A DNA stretch of 64,000 nucleotides, from contig ML996706.1 in NCBI GenBank assembly GCA_010356995.1, positions 507,509-571,508 of the forward strand, in the 5' to 3' direction. The notes under the pieces are model-generated. The model saw only the letters and a list, made by a program, of their open reading frames with translations, was not told the DNA's origin and made no database searches. The DNA comes from Trichodelitschia bisporula. Taxonomy: Eukaryota; Ascomycota; Dothideomycetes; Phaeotrichales; Phaeotrichaceae. The position numbers and the translations under genes were made by a program. This document shows positions 15,045 through 46,829 of the stretch, in pieces (position 1 is the stretch's first letter; the number at the start of each line of letters is the position of its first letter).

Positions 15045-15475
15045 TTACGCTTCAATGTACTTCTTGATAGCCGTCTCAATAGCCGGTGGGTTCGCACCCA
15101 CCACCTCGCCCAGCTTCTCGCCGTTCTTGAAGAAATAGAACGTGGGCATGGCACGCACACCCAGCTCGGCAGCGGCGTCGGCCACGTCGTCGACGTCGAG
15201 CTTGTAGAACTTGGCGTCGGGGTACCTTTTGGAGAATCTGCCATGTGTCAGTCCATATCCTCTCTTTTTCTCCGGTATTCGGGGGACGTACTCGACGATC
15301 TTGGGCGCGACGACCTTGCAGGGACCGCACCACGTCGCGAAGCAGTCGATCACGACGAGCTTGTCGCTCTGGATGAGCTCATTGAGAGCCTGCTTGCTGC
15401 GCGGGGGTCAGCGCGTTTTCATCGCAGGAGGCGCAGAGCTTACCTTTGAAGGTTGTGGACGCCGCCTTCGCTCAT
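15045..15475 (-). CDS. trxA: Thioredoxin
   Basis: Exons 15444-15475, 15292-15396 and 15045-15237 give 109 residues, the standard cytosolic thioredoxin length. It is a disulfide reductase for ribonucleotide reductase, peroxiredoxins and others. The active site WCGPC is at 33-37 in VIDCFATWCGPCKVVAPK; the core continues FSKRYPDAKFYKLDVDDVAD, the cis-proline turn AMPTFYFFKNGEK and the end AIETAIKKYIEA. The 32-nt first exon codes MSEGGVHNLQ. The exon-2 donor (GTACGT) and the third-exon acceptor restore PKIVEFSKRYP. Confidence 0.95.
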
Positions 15476-16446
15476 TTTGCTGGTGGTGCTGAATCTGAAG
15501 GCTTGGGGATAGAAGATGGGTTGTGGGCGGTAGGGGGCTCTTGTGACAGAGGTAAGTATGGATCTGCGGAGAGGTTGAGCGGCGAACATGGAGAGGAAGG
15601 GGAGTTAGATATATACACGGACGAGGGGCAGGCGGGGAGGTTTGGCGGCTTGTTTCTTTGCGGGGCGGACAGGGCTTTAGCGATGGGTGGCGCCAAGTGC
15701 CCGGGATATGTTGGGAGGGGTGACAAATGGGGGATGACGAAAGCGATGTGATATGATATTTTCACGACGTACCTCGATTCTAGCAGTGGGAATACTGTAG
15801 GAAGGCGGAGTTGGGAAGGCGGAAATAGTGATCACAAAAACTGACAGAGGGTGGCGCGAGTAGATATCAAATGATGGAGGTGGTTATAAAGCGCATGACT
15901 TCAGCCCTTCAGCCCGACTGATCTGCTTAGATATCCAGACATTCCAGGCTCTCGTTCCCTTGCCTTCGCTCCTGATCGATATTTGCTACTGGTCAATGAA
16001 GGGATAGTAGGGCAGGCACGTCATCACTAGCCTTCCACGTTCGATGCACGAGTACACGCTATTCGCTCCCTTCTCTCCCTTCGCTGCCCTTCGCTTATTC
16101 ACCCTCAAGGCCCAAAGTGTCGTCATGCATCTACCCCTCACCTCAACCCCGCACCGTCCGCATGCGAAAGGCACGAACAACCGCCTCGTCGGAATGCTGG
16201 GCGCTGCCTTTGCGCGCAGAAAGTGGCTGTGCGATAAGCTTCAAGCCTTATAGGCACCAGCATGCCACAGGCGCCACAATCGCGCGGAATTGAGCCACGT
16301 ATATACGCCTGTGCCACAACGGGGTCAACTTCTGCGACGCATCACATCTTGGCATTTGATGCCGCTCCCTATCTTTAACTCCCACGTTCTCTCCGATCTA
16401 CGTCTGGCCCTGCCTCAAACAATCTTTTACTCGAGATAGTCTCACC
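15476..16446. other. Intergenic region, about 1 kb, divergent thioredoxin / H4 variant
   Basis: Contains both promoters. Pyrimidine-rich, CT-repeat-like sequence precedes the H4 variant start. No frame with protein-like features; no RNA gene seen. Confidence 0.45.
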
Positions 16447-17285
16447 ATGGCGCGTATGAATTCATTGTCTGCCGCTCGGGGCCGCGCTATCCCCCGCTCC
16501 ACTACTCGCTCAGTCACCGTCGATGACTCGTTCTTTACCTCGTCCAACCCGGGCCATGCGTATGGCACACGTCGGGCTGATCCTGGGGAACCTTCGACCG
16601 GCTCCCGCGCGGCTGCTGAGGCTCGCGCCGCCCGCGCCCGTGCCGTGTTTCAGCAGAGTGGTGGGAAGGGTTCTAGAGGTCTAGGCGTCTCTGGTCTTAA
16701 GCGTCACCGGTAGGACTCATGTTGGCCTTTCTCATATCAAGCTGATTACTTGTAGCAAGGTGCTACGCGACAACATAAATGGCATCACCAAGGGTGACGT
16801 TCGGTGCACATTATGGTGCTCTTGTTGTATAATTCGACGGGTTACTGACACTCTGTAGTCGCATGGCTCGTCGTGGCGGGGTCAAGCGCATCTCTTCAGA
16901 TATCTACTCTGCTGCTCGCCTTGCGTTGAGGGAGCGGCTGAGTCTTGTATGCTGCTATCTAACGGGAGACATGGAGCTTGTTTGCTGATATATCATAGCT
17001 ACTGAAGCAGATCGTTCTCATGGTTGGTACGTACTGGCATGTGCAGTATGTATCTGAGACTACGCTAACTATCACAGAGGTGTGCAACCGGAAGACAGTC
17101 ACTGTCATGGACGTAGTTTGGGTGCTCAACAGGGTATGGTCCTCCAAGCCCTAGGAAGAAAGTCATGCTAACAGTAGTCCACAGAACGGCGCCCCGATTT
17201 ACGTGAGTGACATTGTCGACGCGTATCGTCCTCCTACTGACAGTTGCAGGGCTTCGGTGAGCCTGAGTTTGGCCGCCACAAGTAG
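16447..17285 (+). CDS. Divergent histone H4 variant with ~70-residue N-terminal extension
   Basis: Seven exons (16447-16709, 16756-16803, 16859-16946, 16999-17026, 17078-17133, 17185-17202, 17250-17285) give 178 residues against 103 for canonical H4. After an Arg/Ala/Ser-rich extension (1-70) comes an H4-like tail GGKGSRGLGVSGLKRHRK and the histone fold: VLRDNINGITKGDVRRMARR, GGVKRISSDIYSAARLALRE, a diverged alpha-2 (LLLKQIVLMVEVCNRKTVT) and the end VWVLNRNGAPIYGFGEPEF. The tail lysines of canonical H4 at 5, 8 and 12 are partly lost or moved. Loop 1 and the C-terminal YGFG are kept, alpha-2 is strongly changed. Six introns, including 18- and 28-nt exons, contrast with the few introns of core histone genes. 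Filamentous ascomycetes are known to carry an H4 variant (hH4v); this is probably such a gene. Its role is unknown. Confidence 0.9.
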
Positions 17286-18128
17286 TTTCTGTTGGGATTT
17301 CTGCATCTCGCTTATGATACCCACGGTCTGTCCGGTCTTCGGCGTTATGGGACACTCTTTCGGACATTATCTAGCGGAGTTCAGCGGGGCGACGGGTCAC
17401 AAATTCTCAACATAGTCGGGTTGTGTACGGCAGATAGCGCAATGAACCAGGCTTTTCCACGGAGTTTCTCCCCTTCTTTTCCGGACATGCATAGATGGTG
17501 ATTTGCCCACCGCAGCGCGACGCGCATAGCGTAAGCCCGGACCCGGCGATGGTTACACGGCGTCTTTTGACGCTTTGTAGCACCCGATTCCATTCACGTC
17601 CGATATCTGACAGCGCGCCCCAAGCAGGCAACCCAGTTCGCTCTTTCGTTGCGGTGGCCCGGACGTTTCGGAGGATTCAAATCCACAATGACCTGCAGGA
17701 ACAGGATCATTCGCTTGTTCCGGTGCCACACCCTACTGCACTCACCCCGTTACAGAGTGTCTGCGGCTGAGATGTCCACACCGTCGGGTCTTGGACAAGC
17801 GTTTCATGTTTTATTTGCCCGCATCCTGGTGCTCGGGATGAATCTCGGAGGCGTGGTTGTGCAGCGTTAAGCCACCGGAATATCGGCGATTTCATGGGTT
17901 TGAAAGCCCGGTTTCTGGGAATGCGAGGCTGAGAGTGGGATGAAGGAGCTTGTGGTGTTGGGTGTCTTTTTTCTGGTGAGTATATATGGACTGGAGAGGG
18001 TTGGCATTTCTGGTTCTTCGTCAAGCATCGTCCTTCCCATTCTGCCCTTTTCACGGCTCACTCGCTCGCTAGCCGTACTCTAACTCTTCGCCATTCGTTC
18101 AGTGTCCACGGGTGGTCATTCTTTCACG
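17286..18128. other. Intergenic region, about 0.8 kb
   Basis: Between the H4 variant and the secreted repeat protein. A pyrimidine-rich stretch (18020-18100) just before the next start resembles a fungal core promoter. No gene recognised. Confidence 0.45.
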
Positions 18129-19583
18129 ATGATTTTCCCTCTTCTCGCGTTGGCTCTGCCCGGCCTGGTCATCGCTAGCTCGGAGGCGCCTTGCTCGACT
18201 AGCAGCTTCACTGCGGTCGTGGATCCGACTCTGACGGCTTCCATCTCGGGACATGCGAGCTCCGGGCGTGTCAAGCCCGCTCATTCATCTCGCCGCCCCG
18301 CGCTATCAAATACGACCACGCGTGCCCCATCCCCTGTGGACGACGAACCGACCACGCCTCTCCTCGCCTCAACCTCCACAGAGACCCCAACCATCTTCAA
18401 CGTCTCAAGCAAATTTCCCTTCTCCCTCTCCGGCTCCACCCTCATCCACCTCACTACCGCCTCCCTCCTCCCCCGCTCCGAACCCTGCACAACCCACACC
18501 ACCTCCACCACCGTCACAGTCACCGTGGACCCAACCACCACCTCCATGGCCGCATTCATAACCCCCTGGTCCGCCGGCATCTCAGACGCGCAGTATGAGA
18601 CGGCGGCCGCCCCCCCTCCGGTTGTGTTCGTAGCTCAGGCTCAGGCAGGGGTGAGCGGGACGAACACCACGCTCACGCGGACGGAGGCGAGGACTAGGAC
18701 CGCCACCCTGGTACTCACCGACCCGCGCACCTCGCTCACATTCACGGATGCCAGCACCAGCGCTACGGCGACGCTGACGATCACCGAGCCGCTCACAGAC
18801 ACGGCTGATGCGGACATGGCTGATGCCGAGCTGGCGTCTACGAGTTATGATCTGCTGAGCAAATACCCCTTCAGTCTGTCCGGGAGCACGATCATCCACC
18901 TCTCCACCGTGACGGGCCTGGGTAAGCGCAGGCGCGCATATGCGACTGGGCATGCGGGGAGTGTGAACCCGGAGGCTACGGGGCGTCCGGAGGCGAAGAA
19001 TGAGACGGGGCATCATCACGAGCACGGGGCTAACTCGACGGCCGAGAATCCAGCACCTACCTCCACGGACCTGACCATCGCCTCGGCAGCCGCGCTTGCC
19101 GTTCCCGCTGCCGCTCCCGCTGCCGCTACGACGCAGGCTCCGGCCGAAGCTCCGGCAACCACGGAGGAAGCGGCGACGAGTTATAACTTACTGAGCAAAT
19201 ATCCCTTCTCGCTGTCTGGGAGTACGATCATTCACCTCTCCACCGTGACGGAGCTGGGTAAGCGCGAGGAGCCGTGCACAACCCACGCCTCGCCCTCCCC
19301 CTCGGGCACGGACAAGAGCGTATCCTTCGGACATCCGCCCTCGGGTGTGCCGGCAAGGTCAACGCTTTTGACGGTTGCGTCGGGGGTGGGTAATGGTTTT
19401 GGCGATACTGTGCGCTCGAGTCTTGAGACGGGTGGGTTCCCGAGTGCGTCGGACGCTGGGCATGAGAGGCGGTATCAGTCGCCGGACTGGCGCCGGCGGG
19501 ATCAACCGCCGACATGGCGCCGTCGGGATCAACCGCCGGCCTGGCGCCGGCGTCGTGGGGTTGCGGTGCTGCCGGCGGTTTGA
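18129..19583 (+). CDS. Secreted Ser/Thr/Ala-rich repeat protein with dibasic processing sites
   Basis: Intronless, 484 residues from the ATG at 18129; an ATG 27 nt upstream adds nine residues. The chosen start gives a clean signal peptide (MIFPLLALALPGLVIAS). The body is rich in Ser/Thr/Ala with N-glycosylation sequons. A ~26-residue element occurs three times (18396-18476, 18846-18929, 19182-19265): core SKYPFSLSGSTIIHLSTVT, nearly identical in copies 2 and 3, variant in copy 1. Copies 2 and 3 end in LGKR and copy 1 in LLPR; EPCTTH follows copies 1 and 3. The C-terminus repeats RRRDQPPxW (19476-19559). Lys-Arg and Arg-Arg are Kex2-type cleavage sites, so the protein may be cut into peptides, like fungal kexin-processed repeat proteins such as the repellent Rep1. 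No tyrosinase-like or UstYa gene lies nearby. Function not known. Confidence 0.8.
   Translation: MIFPLLALALPGLVIASSEAPCSTSSFTAVVDPTLTASISGHASSGRVKPAHSSRRPALSNTTTRAPSPVDDEPTTPLLASTSTETPTIFNVSSKFPFSLSGSTLIHLTTASLLPRSEPCTTHTTSTTVTVTVDPTTTSMAAFITPWSAGISDAQYETAAAPPPVVFVAQAQAGVSGTNTTLTRTEARTRTATLVLTDPRTSLTFTDASTSATATLTITEPLTDTADADMADAELASTSYDLLSKYPFSLSGSTIIHLSTVTGLGKRRRAYATGHAGSVNPEATGRPEAKNETGHHHEHGANSTAENPAPTSTDLTIASAAALAVPAAAPAAATTQAPAEAPATTEEAATSYNLLSKYPFSLSGSTIIHLSTVTELGKREEPCTTHASPSPSGTDKSVSFGHPPSGVPARSTLLTVASGVGNGFGDTVRSSLETGGFPSASDAGHERRYQSPDWRRRDQPPTWRRRDQPPAWRRRRGVAVLPAV
18846..19265 (+). repeat. Two near-identical coding repeats (third, diverged copy at 18396-18476)
   Basis: The 84-bp segments 18846-18929 and 19182-19265 code almost the same peptide and share most bases despite 250 bp of unrelated sequence between them. 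This suggests either recent duplication/gene conversion or strong selection on the peptide. Confidence 0.85.
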
Positions 19584-40453: not shown

Positions 40454-43247
40454 ATGGACGGCCTCAAACCCGAGAAACCCTCCATGGTTGCCTTCGCTCG
40501 GTTCCACGGGCTTACCGTAGACTACTTTTCCCAGGATCCACTGGGTTCGCTCATCCTACCGGAGAAGATAAACAATGGCCCAGAACCACTTAATCCGCTG
40601 GAGGGCGTCTTCACGATCCCAATCTCGGCTGGCGGTTTGTTGTCGGCGCGACTGGAGGCTCCTCGCGAGGCGGCCTTGTTCCTGAGATCGGTTATTGTCC
40701 CCCCGGAGCCGGCGCCGTGGCTTGAAGACGACCTGCCGAAGGGTCTTGAGATTGTAAAACTCAAGCTGGAGGAGCCGATCCTGCGGACGGACAATGAACT
40801 CGATGTGCTGCATTTCGGGCGTAGAGCCGTGCCTGATTTTGCGAGTATGCCATTCCAAAAGGTTCGCGTGGATGAGGAGAACGACGAAGGACTCTCGTGG
40901 CCTAGTGGGTATGTTCGACTGGAACAGCAATGTCAAAAGGTGGCGCGCTTGGAACGTCTCGCTATTCCCAAGGAGGCGTTCTTGTTTCTCCAGAGTGTGT
41001 TGGTGGATGATGTCTCCGCGAGTGATGAAGAGGCTTTCTTCGCTGTAGAGTCCGAGTACCAGGTCTGTTCATTGACTGAGAGTGCCATGTGCTTATGCGG
41101 CTAGGATCGAGCGTCAGCGGTTGCGATACCGGTTACGCCACCATTGCTCCCCTTGAGTCCCAAGCTGTCTCCATTCGAGCCGGAACCTGCAGCGTACGAT
41201 CTCGAGCTCTCAGACGAGCCAGAAGACCCATTCGCCAATGAACTGGAAGTCATCGAGGCGTATCTAGCAAAAGAGGACGCAATCATGCCACCTGGCCTCG
41301 GAAGCGATGACCTGTCCTCCATCAACAGTTCCAACATCGGCGTCTTCTATCCACCCCTCGACCCTCGCTCCGAACCCGGCATCCAATCCCCACCAAAACG
41401 CAAGCTCAGCGACCTTAAAATCGACGTCCCACTCACCCCACCCATTCCCTCCACCCCCACAAAGCGCGCCAAAACAGTCCACTTCCCCGAGCTGCTGCAC
41501 GAGATTATCGGCGAATCCGCGCCCGAGCGCTCAACTCCCGAGCCCTCATCCGAAGACCCGGTCTTTCAAGCCCTCGCTCCCCTTGCCGCATCCGCTGAGC
41601 AGGATATCGCGAATGAGCGCCTCCACGACGCAGACTCGCTGCTACGAGTCGATGTAGCGGTGCTGGACTTCACGCCGCCGATTCCGCCATGGAAGCGTCT
41701 CGGTCGTAGAGCGCGTGGCAAGCACCCCGAGGGCGCGACGGAGATGGACTGTCAGCGGCGCTTGCTGCAGGAAGTTAAGAGCCGGGAGCTCAAGGACGCG
41801 GAGCGCTGGCACGGTATATCTAAGGTGGAGCGCCAGCTGACGTGGAGTCCCTTTCCGGCGGATTTGGCGCGGGGCGCCGCGGAGGAGAGGATTGAGGAGG
41901 AGAGGTACCTCGCGGTTGTGATGGATGATATGACGCTCGAGGGCGTGGTTACGAGTGAGGATCTTACGTGGAAGTTGGAGGGGTTGAGGGTGTTGGATGA
42001 AGATGAGGAGGAGAGTGATATCGAGATTGACGAAGAGCTGGAGAAGCAAGGGTTTGAGGCCTTGATCAAGAAGAGGAAAAGGGAGATGGAAGAGGAGGGG
42101 GAGGTTCATGCGGCGCAGGAGAAGAGGCGGCCGAGAGAGCTGGAGAGACGTCTTGATGAACCGAGACGCCTTGATGAATCGGCAAGACCGTCAACTGAAG
42201 CGCAAAGGACCGGCCAACGACAGTGTGCGGCCACGGTACAACCCCGCCTCCAAAGACTAGGAACCTTCTCAACCTCGACCGCCCTCGCCAGCTTTCTCCA
42301 AAGCATGGGCGCGCCCGTCCCAGCACCAGCACCACCTCCGCCTCCGCCTCCAAAACCAGTATCGAAGCCAAAACCAGCCGTCGAACCACGCCCTCCCTCT
42401 CCACCCCCAGCACCCTCCCTCTCCCTCCCTCCCCTCCCCTCCCCCGTCCCAACCGCATCATTCATAATCTCCACCCACCTCTACCGCACCCACCGCCCCC
42501 TCCTCCGGCACATATCCTCCCTGTACCCCACCGCCACCCTCATCGAACGCGACTTCGCAGCCGACGACCCGCTCGACCCCCCAGACGCAGATATCCTCCT
42601 CTCCCCTGCTTGTGGACTGGTGCTTACGTCCATCGCGCACTTGAAGCAGCGCCCGCTGCCCGGGCAGGCGCGGACGAGGACGCGGACGGTGCTCGGGCGG
42701 ATCGCCCGGCTGGTGGGAAGGTGGGAGCGGCTCATCGTGCTTGTGAACGGGGAGACGGGGATGGCTGATGCAGGGGACGTGGATGCGCTGAACGAGTTGA
42801 GCGTTTTTGCGAACGGCTTGGAGGGTGATGTTCAAGTTGTGTACGTCCCTGGTGCGGAGGTCGAGGCCGCGGGTGTAGTGGTTAGGTTTATGGCGGTGTA
42901 TGGCAAGGGGGAGAGGGCGGATTTGCTTGAGGTTGAGACGCAGGTATGTGCCCCTTTATCGTTGGGATGGTAAGCTGATGAAGGAGTGGGAGCGGTTCCT
43001 CCGAAGAGTCGGGCTTAATGCGTGCGCGGCGCAGGCGGTGCTTTTTGCGCTTCGGGTGCCGAGGGAGGATGAGAAGGTGGAGGGGAGTGGTAATGCGGAG
43101 ATGCGGAGTGGAGGGGTGTATGGCCTTAGGGCGTTCCTGGCGATGGAGCCTTGGGAAAGGGTGAGGCAGTTTTGCGGGATGATGGGGGGGGAGAGGGTGT
43201 TGCGATGCGTGAGCAGGTGTCTCGAGGGAGAGATTGACGGGATATAG
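40454..43247 (+). CDS. Large protein with XPF-like and helix-hairpin-helix C-terminus (Zip2/SHOC1-like)
   Basis: Exons 40454-41062, 41105-42943 and 42984-43247 give 903 residues; the introns are only 42 and 40 nt. The N-terminal half has conserved-looking blocks (FHGLTVDYFSQDPL, FLRSVIVPPEPAPWLEDDLP), an acidic linker (SDEPEDPFANELEVIEAY), TPPIPPWKRLGRRARG, and a charged helix region. After a Pro-rich spacer comes an alpha/beta domain: FIISTHLYRTHRPLLRHI, ADILLSPACGLVLTSI, ERLIVLVNGE, VQVVYVPGAEVEAAGVVVRF. The last exon has WERFLRRVGLNACAAQAVL and GLRAFLAMEPWERVRQFCGM, a likely tandem HhH. This layout is that of Zip2/SHOC1, the XPF-like ZMM protein of meiotic crossover. No ERKX3D nuclease motif was seen. 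The assignment is inference from layout, not from a clear family signature. Confidence 0.8.
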
Positions 43248-44412: not shown

Positions 44413-46829
44413 ATGGAGTCCATATCGCGCATCTCCAGCATGCTGGAAGCAGGTCCGTCTCCCCCACCACCTCTTGATACGTACTAACCTCCCCAACAGC
44501 CCGCGACCTCACCCTCGAAGCCGCCCGCGACGCCAGCACGCGCAAACCCACCACCCGGCCCCTCCCCGCCCTCGCACTCAAAAAACTCCTCGACAGCCGG
44601 CGCGAAACCGACATCCTCGAAGGCCTGCGCAAAGTCATCTCGCTCTCCTACCAAAAAGCCCCCACCCTGCAATTCTTCTCCCACATCGTCAAGAACATCG
44701 CGTCCCCGAACCTCGAGGTTAAGAAACTAGTCTATGCGTACCTGGTCCAACATGCAGAGGAGGCGCCGGATACGGCGTTGTTGAGTATTAATACGATTCA
44801 AAAGAGTTTGAGTGATGCGGATCCGCGGTTGAGGGCCCTGGCGCTGAGGACGATGAGTAGTATCCGTGTGCCGGTTATTAGTCAGATTGTGGCACTTGGG
44901 ATTAAGCGCGGGGTGGGGGATATGAGTCCGTATGTGAGGCGGGCGGCGGCGCTGGCGATTCCGAAGTGTTATCGTTTGGATCCGGGGATGGGGCCGGAGT
45001 TGGTAAGACTGATTGCGGTGCTGCTGGGGGATAAACAGTACTATGTTGCGGGGGCGGCGGTGGTTGCGTTCCTCGAGGTGTGCCCTGAGCGGATCGAGCT
45101 TGTGCATCCGCATTACAAGGCGCTGGTGCGGAAGCTGGTGGATATGGATGAGTGGGGGCAGTTGGCGACCATGCAGATGATGCTGGGCTATGCGCGGGCT
45201 TGTTTTCCAAGGAAGACGAGGTGGGTCAAGACTGCGAAAACCAGAGACGCGGCCAACCCGACCAAAGGCTTCTACGACTCGGAATCCTCAGACAACGACG
45301 AAGACGAGGGTGAGGAAGTTACTATTCTCGATCCGGACCTAGACTTTTTCCTCCGCGCCGCAACCCCGCTCCTCCACTCCCGCAACCCCGCCGTCATCCT
45401 CGCCGTCGCCCGCTGCTACATCTACCTCGGCGACTCCGCCTACACATCCCAGATCCCAGGGCCGCTCATCAGTCTCCTCCGCGCCCCGGCGGACATCCAA
45501 CACATCGCCCTCCACAACATAACCCAGATCGCGCTCTCCCACGCCGCGCTCTTCGCGCCGTATACCAGCCACTTCCTGCTGCGCTCTACCGACCCCATTG
45601 CCATCAAGACGCTAAAACTGGATCTCCTGACGCTGTTGTTTCCCCCTTCGCCACCGACTACGCGCTCCCTGATCCTGGCTGAAATTAGCCATTTCACCGC
45701 CGCCCCGGATCCCGTGCTCGTCCGCGCCGCGGTGCGCGCGCTGGGTGCGTGCGCGACCGCCGCGCCCACACCCGCGCTTCAAAACCACTGCCTCCGCCTC
45801 CTGCTCAAGCAACTCGCGAGTCCGGACCCGCATCTCGTCGCCGCGGCGCTGGAAGTCGTGCGGCATCTCATTCAGCGGGCCCCCGAGAAACACGCTAGGA
45901 CCATTGTGCGCCTGGCCAAGCATTTGGATGTGTTAAGCGCCCCCCGCGCCAGGGCGGCGATTGTCTGGCTGGTGGGGGAGTATGCGGCGCGTGCGGGGAA
46001 GGGGGGAGTTGCGCCGGATGTGTTGAGGTTGCTGGTGAGGGGGTGGGGGGGGGAGGGGGATGAGGTGAGGCGGGAGGTGCTGGGGTTGGGGGGGAAGGTT
46101 TATTTGGCTTGGTTGGGGAGTGAGGAGGGGAAGAAAGCTCTGGAGGGCGAGAAGAAGGAGGGAGGGGAGGGGGATGAGGCCGGCTGGGGCGGCGAGAGGG
46201 ATGGGGAGGGGAAGGAAGAGAAGGATCCGATTCCGGCGCTGTTCGCGCATGTGTTGTTATTGGCGCGGTATACGCCCAGCTATGATCTCCGGGACAGAGC
46301 GAGGTTACTGCGCGCGTTGTTGGCCAATCCGCAAGAGGGCGCGCAACTTGCGTCTCTCCTTATGCTGGCGCCGAAACCGGCTCCACTTGCGGAGTCGAGA
46401 GCGGCGGGACGGGCGGGGTTCACGCTGGGGAGTGCGAGCTTGGTGGTTGCGGATTTGGTGGGGGAGGGGGGGGTGNNNNNNNNNNNNNNNNNNNNNNNNN
46501 NNNNNNNNNNNNNNNNNNNNNNNNNNNNNNNNNNNNNNNNNNNNNNNNNNNNNNNNNNNNNNNNNNNNGCTGGGGTTGCTGGGGGGGAGAGGAGTGCGGG
46601 GAGTGTGTTGGATGAGAGGGCGGGGGTTAAGGAGGTTGGGGTTGGGAATAAGGGGAAGACGTTGGATGATTGGCTTGCTAGTGAGGAGGAGGAGGAGGAG
46701 GAGGAGGAGGAGGAGAGTGAGGAGAGTGGGGAGGAGGATGAAGAAGAGGAGAGCGAGGAGGAGAGTGAGGACGAAAGCGATAGCGAGGAGGATGAGGATG
46801 CGGCGCAGAGGGAGGGGCTCATGCGGTAG
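44413..46829 (+). CDS. apl6: AP-3 adaptor complex beta subunit
   Basis: Exons 44413-44452 and 44500-46829 give about 789 residues; the 93 unknown bases at 46476-46568 keep the frame if the gap size is right. AP-3 beta sorts cargo from Golgi/endosome to vacuole. Adaptin trunk: ARDLTLEAARDASTRKPTTR, READILEGLRKVISLSYQK-like segment, FFSHIVKNIASPNLEVKKL, VYAYLVQHAEE, LSINTIQKSLSDADPRLRALALRTMS, YVRRAAALAIPKCYRLD. The hinge near 280 is acidic (ESSDNDEDEGEE), the C-terminus is an extreme Glu/Ser tail (about 735-785), as in AP-3 beta. The intron has a GTCCGT donor. The bases around the stop codon are copied twice downstream (see repeats). Confidence 0.93.
46476..46568. other. Assembly gap (93 N) inside apl6
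   Basis: Ninety-three unknown bases in a G-rich coding stretch (GGGGGAGGGGGGGGTG just before). The size is a multiple of three, so the reading frame continues, but the true sequence and length are not known. Confidence 1.

Follow-up and report, generated by a model that had tools for sequence, protein, structure and literature searches.

Variants of histone H4 are rare. One family of them, H4E, is a divergent H4 of most Pezizomycotina that has been lost in some groups; it is encoded by hheA in Aspergillus nidulans, and the H4v of Neurospora crassa (hH4v) is its orthologue (PMC10878826, of which a part underlies this and all later statements on H4E). The typical gene begins with a phase-2 intron (i1), an exon 2 of 29-32 nt, a phase-1 intron (i2) and a 16-nt exon, and continues through a phase-2 intron (i3) and an 88-nt exon to phase-0 introns from i4 on; Dothideomycete genes have an 18-nt exon close to the 3' end (PMC10878826). 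Intron losses have been reported in different taxa and intron gains in Dothideomycetes, no stable tree has been obtained for the family, and its tails vary, with stress laid on their paucity of both lysine and arginine (PMC10878826). In A. nidulans the protein is found in the nucleus and, in a BiFC (split-YFP) assay, interacts with H3; it cannot replace H4.1. No phenotype follows from deletion of hheA or its alcA-driven overexpression, a mild one appears when the H4.1 promoter drives the gene, and after deletion and overexpression the family is still described as having no known function (PMC10878826).

The window considered here is a stretch of 64,000 nt from the Dothideomycete Trichodelitschia bisporula. 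Splicing of positions 16447-17285 on the forward strand yields a reading of seven exons, 537 nt and 178 amino acids with a single terminal stop (Table 1). The coordinates given in the earlier note proved exact, and the six introns and the exons of 18 and 28 nt that it had read there were recovered. All six introns are bounded by GT and AG, measure 46-55 nt with 41-53% GC, and carry a CTRAY branch-point motif 9-13 nt from the intron end (script count). The chance of such a motif in shuffled introns is 0.09-0.13 for each, or 2.0e-6 jointly for six out of six. These features are good evidence, as a prediction from the DNA, that this intron set is real and maintained.

Table 1. Predicted features of the H4 variant gene (positions in the window; intron names i1, i3 and i4 and published exon sizes follow the H4E model in the part of PMC10878826 used here).
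Feature	Positions	Strand	Description
Exon 1	16447..16709	+	263 nt, end phase 2; residues 1-70 form the Ala/Arg/Ser extension, followed by tail SGGKGSRGLGVSGLKRH(R)
Predicted N-terminal extension	16447..16656	+	70 residues ahead of SGGKG; N-terminus 68 residues longer than in canonical H4
Intron 1	16710..16755	.	Phase 2, within the R19 codon; matches H4E i1
Exon 2	16756..16803	+	48 nt; read as a fusion of published exons 2 and 3 (29-32 + 16 nt), i2 being absent
Intron 2	16804..16858	.	Phase 2; matches H4E i3
Exon 3	16859..16946	+	88 nt, the size of published H4E exon 4; remaining alpha-1, L1, first half of alpha-2
Intron 3	16947..16998	.	Phase 0; matches H4E i4
Exon 4	16999..17026	+	28 nt; alpha-2
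Intron 4	17027..17077	.	Phase 1; additional to the published general H4E model
Exon 5	17078..17133	+	56 nt; end of alpha-2, L2, alpha-3 (RKTVTVMDVVWVLNR)
Intron 5	17134..17184	.	Phase 0
Exon 6	17185..17202	+	18 nt, NGAPIY; the 18-nt exon described for Dothideomycetes
Intron 6	17203..17249	.	Phase 0
Exon 7	17250..17285	+	36 nt, GFGEPEFGRHK and stop TAG

The architecture to which the earlier note had drawn attention, with its many introns and tiny exons, is not out of the ordinary: it lies close to the published H4E signature. Phase-2 i1 and i3, the 88-nt exon and phase-0 i4 are all present, as is the 18-nt exon between phase-0 introns, and the intron positions differ from those of both canonical H4 genes of the genome, as they do in H4E. 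The phase-1 i2 of the typical model is absent, with a single 48-nt exon (32 + 16) in its place; the part of the paper used here does not state i2 to be universal. By our own sum, the 28 and 56 nt split by the phase-1 intron make 84 nt, equal to the 63 and 21 nt of published H4E exons, although the small exons are given there in another order (PMC10878826). The protein combines a core that is recognizable as H4, yet diverged from the genome's own canonical H4, with 68 additional residues at the N-terminus, a figure that depends on the gene model, and seven at the C-terminus, longer tails at both ends being a trait of the family. Because the intron phases and the 88-nt and 18-nt exons match the H4E model, the gene is, judged from its sequence, an H4E (hheA / hH4v) orthologue, and a solid, well-preserved representative of a family that is known but enigmatic. 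The earlier pointer to hH4v was well aimed. What is particular to this gene is the 68-residue extension, the absence of i2, the extra intron and a site away from nudA and svf1.

The A. nidulans protein (ANID_12228) provides the closest comparison. It too is a divergent H4, with tails lengthened at both termini and fewer tail lysines, its C-terminus is likewise seven residues longer, the basic patch is kept, and two canonical H4 genes stand alongside; the typical H4E gene shares phase-2 i1 and i3, the 88-nt exon, phase-0 i4 and small 3' exons with the gene described here (PMC10878826). In contrast, the A. nidulans protein has five extra N-terminal residues where 68 arginine-rich ones are predicted here, and the present gene lacks i2, has an extra phase-1 intron, carries no TIPSS-type insertion as described for Eurotiomycetes and does not lie between nudA and svf1. 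The N. crassa hH4v likewise is an H4 variant of the Pezizomycotina whose exons are arranged differently from those of canonical H4. An extended N-terminal tail, of 38 amino acids, is also found in CpBV-H4 of Cotesia plutellae bracovirus (PMC10878826), but that protein is viral, close to insect H4 and lysine-rich in its tail, whereas the present one is fungal and its extension lysine-free, and no kinship is claimed. Pattern searches in the non-fungal collections viral_contigs (13 matches) and genome_contigs (118 matches) gave no confirmed relative, and are silent on the extension in relatives.

The assignment to H4 itself is borne out by sequence comparison with the PDB and within the genome. 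A phmmer search of PDB sequences matched 96 distinct entries (best E 1.1e-29, residues 71-170), and the best 60 of the 96 were all named H4, one of them also labelled H2A. Aligned without indels to the canonical H4 encoded on contig C5, the histone part is identical at 55 of 100 positions (residues 2-101), in agreement with the divergent H4 variant that had been proposed. Identity is uneven: 15/23 in the tail, 12/17 in the alpha-1 region, 6/7 in L1, 7/28 in alpha-2, 4/5 in L2, 6/12 in alpha-3 and 5/8 at the C-terminus, where the region limits, like the contact roles of H4 residues below, are those commonly given for the nucleosome structure. The divergence of alpha-2 remarked on previously is therefore genuine. 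Of the five tail lysines K5, K16 and K20 are kept while K8 is replaced by arginine and K12 by valine; two of five are lost and the extension holds no lysine but 11 arginines, a mixed picture beside the lysine- and arginine-poor tails of the family. Substitutions spare tail residues 16-20 together with most of L1 and L2. Residues R35, R36, K44, R45, R78, K79 and T80, which we take to be DNA contacts of H4, are all kept, as is R92, whereas K77 has become asparagine. Changes are found at D68, Y72, H75, Y88 and K91, presumably facing H2B, and T96, presumably in the strand that meets H2A, is replaced by proline.

NG86 estimates against the C5 gene over 97 codons give dN 0.49 and dS 0.90 (dN/dS about 0.54), a weak sign that the variant may be under constraint; between the two canonical H4 genes the values are 0.015 and 0.46. 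A Pfam search with the variant returned no family at E 0.001 nor at E 5, the yardstick being the canonical C5 H4, which at E 5 matches nine families, with CENP-T_C and TAF reaching their cut-offs.

Across the genome (25.65 Mb in 30 contigs) a search with the variant protein at E up to 1 found its own locus and two canonical H4 genes, on C5 (match 478789-479070) and C27 (matches 42456-42801), and no second copy. The canonical genes differ from the variant in having no extension and a pair of introns apiece, all of phase 1 and placed elsewhere than the six of the variant (codons 4 and 96 in one gene, 4 and 50 in the other). Conversely, the near-invariant sequence, the codon-4 phase-1 intron and the MTGRGKGG start of canonical H4 were not found in the variant. 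The C5 gene is divergently oriented from an H3 gene. The canonical query also matches C17 weakly (34% identity, E 0.003), at the place of the strongest CENP-T_C match. A further histone-fold-like CENP-T_C match, of 31.2 bits and above the cut-off, lies at C1:132558-132701. A diverged H3 of 71-72% identity is encoded at C2:908517-908869, and may be the centromeric H3.

In Eurotiomycetes and Dothideomycetes H4E sits between nudA, which encodes dynein, and svf1 (PMC10878826), a matter of gene order and not of protein character, and one that is not kept here. In this genome svf1 (C20:319234-319767) lies close to the dynein match (C20:335637-336836), and the H4E gene begins at 523955 of the same 677-kb contig, 187 kb beyond the dynein match. 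Between svf1 and the end of the dynein gene are a kinase reading frame and an acetyltransferase-like (GNAT-like) one, within C20:319000-328900, and a tblastn search for a second H4E in the 29 kb of the nudA-svf1 locus gave a best E of 0.047, with nothing histone-like among the best 25 matches. Mesosynteny has reportedly been described for Dothideomycetes, and a move of H4E within one chromosome would fit such a pattern. Other genes of the window include a thioredoxin-like one at about 15057-15520 on the reverse strand, upstream of the histone, with a WCGPC stretch seen by eye. Downstream of the histone, a long open frame at 18084-19583 holds three copies of SK(F/Y)PFSLSGST(L/I)IHL and a start that by eye resembles a signal peptide, with no Pfam family at E 0.001. 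An adaptin-like reading frame at 44478-46829 has an internal stretch that reads as X (N bases).

The one unusual point of this H4E gene is a predicted stretch of about 68 extra amino acids at the N-terminus. That such a length is exceptional among fungal H4 variants, as the earlier note had it, agrees with the five extra residues of A. nidulans H4E, the single tail length used for comparison; the stretch may plausibly project from the nucleosome, as was also suggested there. The extension of about 70 residues rich in arginine, serine and alanine that the earlier note had placed ahead of the tail stands as a predicted gene model: the 70 residues before SGGKG comprise 14 alanines, 11 arginines, 9 serines, 6 threonines and no lysine. 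The predicted start has the context TCTCACCATGG, and in-frame methionines occur at residues 1, 4, 106, 141 and 153 only, so that before residue 106 just the first two are available. By codon usage the extension frame scores best of the six, a score reached by 126 of 5000 shuffles and by 164 of 2000 stop-free shuffles. The distributions overlap, with 28.9% of 325 wrong-frame stop-free pieces scoring as high and 10.0% of 281 true coding pieces as low, and the test is a weak one, as in the following 51-nt tail piece a reverse frame beats the coding frame. A frame without stops arises in 5517 of 20000 shuffles of the extension, GC3 (0.64) is not raised over GC2 (0.70), and the amino acid composition departs somewhat from that of random translation (equally far in 137 of 3000 stop-free shuffles). 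The extension thus belongs to the best predicted gene model, for which codon statistics give no proof of translation; all in all, we consider it quite probable that it is translated.

The alternative that fares best is that exon 1 hides a 5' intron, whose removal leaves a short-tailed protein like the H4E of A. nidulans. At 16454 there is a donor-like GTATGA; it stands in phase 1, 7 nt beyond the ATG start, which resembles the phase-1 intron that both canonical H4 genes have after nt 10, and in-frame joins from there to 16678 or 16684 would give MARLGVSGLKRH or MARVSGLKRH. The GC3 of the extension, no higher than its GC2, also counts for this reading, and four ATGs within 300 nt upstream of the start, one of them in the same frame and closed by a stop after 43 codons, leave room for a different transcript start. 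Both joins from 16454, however, would delete the H4-like SGGKGSRG. The 24 splice pairs tabulated for exon 1, from 4 of 11 GT and 6 of 8 AG sites, include eight in frame, yet a CTRAY within 45 nt of the acceptor is missing from all 24, which argues for a real extension, and the sole CTRAY of exon 1 is at 16577; the motif occurs in all ten introns of the variant and the two canonical H4 genes. Moreover, the 24 candidate introns have 65-72% GC, against 41-55% for those ten. We regard a spliced-out 5' intron as unlikely.

A related possibility is that the extension is translated but originated, in its first part at least, from a 5' intron that ceased to be spliced. Its first 30 nt or so (CGTATGAATT...CATTGTCTGCCGCTC) show similarity to the exon 1/intron 1 junction of the H3-linked C5 H4 gene, with the shared pattern CGTATG.ATT...CATTGT.TGCC.CTC at 16447-16480, a likeness noticed before it was tested and hence post hoc. 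Anchored at the start, the score is reached by one of 2000 shuffles and by one of 1987 ATG-anchored 45-mers of the window, apparently the gene itself. Scored over the whole extension, the likeness is matched in 24 of 1000 shuffles and in 73 of 1488 72-mers of the window, and the other canonical H4 gene shows no likeness, either whole (420 of 1000 shuffles) or anchored (439 of 2000). An exonized intron is a weak, post hoc lead, and such an origin seems very unlikely to us; if true, this branch of H4E would have gained a new arginine-rich chromatin domain from noncoding DNA.

That the locus is a decaying or non-functional H4 duplicate is less probable still. The few identities left in alpha-2, the pairwise dN/dS and the failure to reach any Pfam family even where canonical H4 reaches nine speak for such a copy, but the seven exons are all open and in frame around six good introns, substitutions have left tail residues 16-20, L1 and L2 largely unaffected, and the exons bear the signature of an old family. 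Least credible is a mitochondrial presequence or other sorting signal that would make the long form not only nuclear: residues 1-25 carry a net charge of +5 and no acidic residue, and the hydrophobic moment peaks at 0.49 in the 18-residue window from residue 13, but it is lower in other windows (0.09-0.36) and H4E-GFP of A. nidulans is nuclear (PMC10878826).

Our preferred reading, to which we assign a probability of roughly 0.6, is that the gene encodes an H4E orthologue that pairs with H3, is less acetylatable than canonical H4, and occurs in few nucleosomes with an extension that contacts DNA. The gene structure as read from the DNA, the homology and the substitutions are established, and no second copy turned up; translation of the extension, entry into nucleosomes in this fungus and each functional consequence we infer. 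The kept H4 fold would pair with H3, and the protein would enter a small share of nucleosomes. Its tail, with K8 and K12 replaced and K5, K16 and K20 kept, would be less open to acetylation, while the lysine-free, arginine-rich extension would provide further electrostatic contact, either to DNA or to an adjacent nucleosome. The changes in the diverged alpha-2 and alpha-3 at the five presumed H2B-facing positions would be expected to alter docking to H2B, and T96P to disturb the short strand that meets H2A; as a result of both, H4E nucleosomes would possibly be less stable. Several observations count against the H4E reading with its functional role. Published H4E tails are poor in lysine and arginine, which an arginine-rich extension does not fit, and the lack of a phenotype on deletion or overexpression in A. 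nidulans weighs in the same direction, as do the change of K77 to asparagine, the absent i2, the lost nudA-svf1 synteny, the overlapping codon statistics of the extension and the weakness of the sign of constraint in dN and dS.

Should the extension prove to be an artefact of the gene model, the locus would be an ordinary H4E gene. If it is real, a member of this family with a long, lysine-free and arginine-rich tail would be a natural case for testing whether H4E works by way of its tail.
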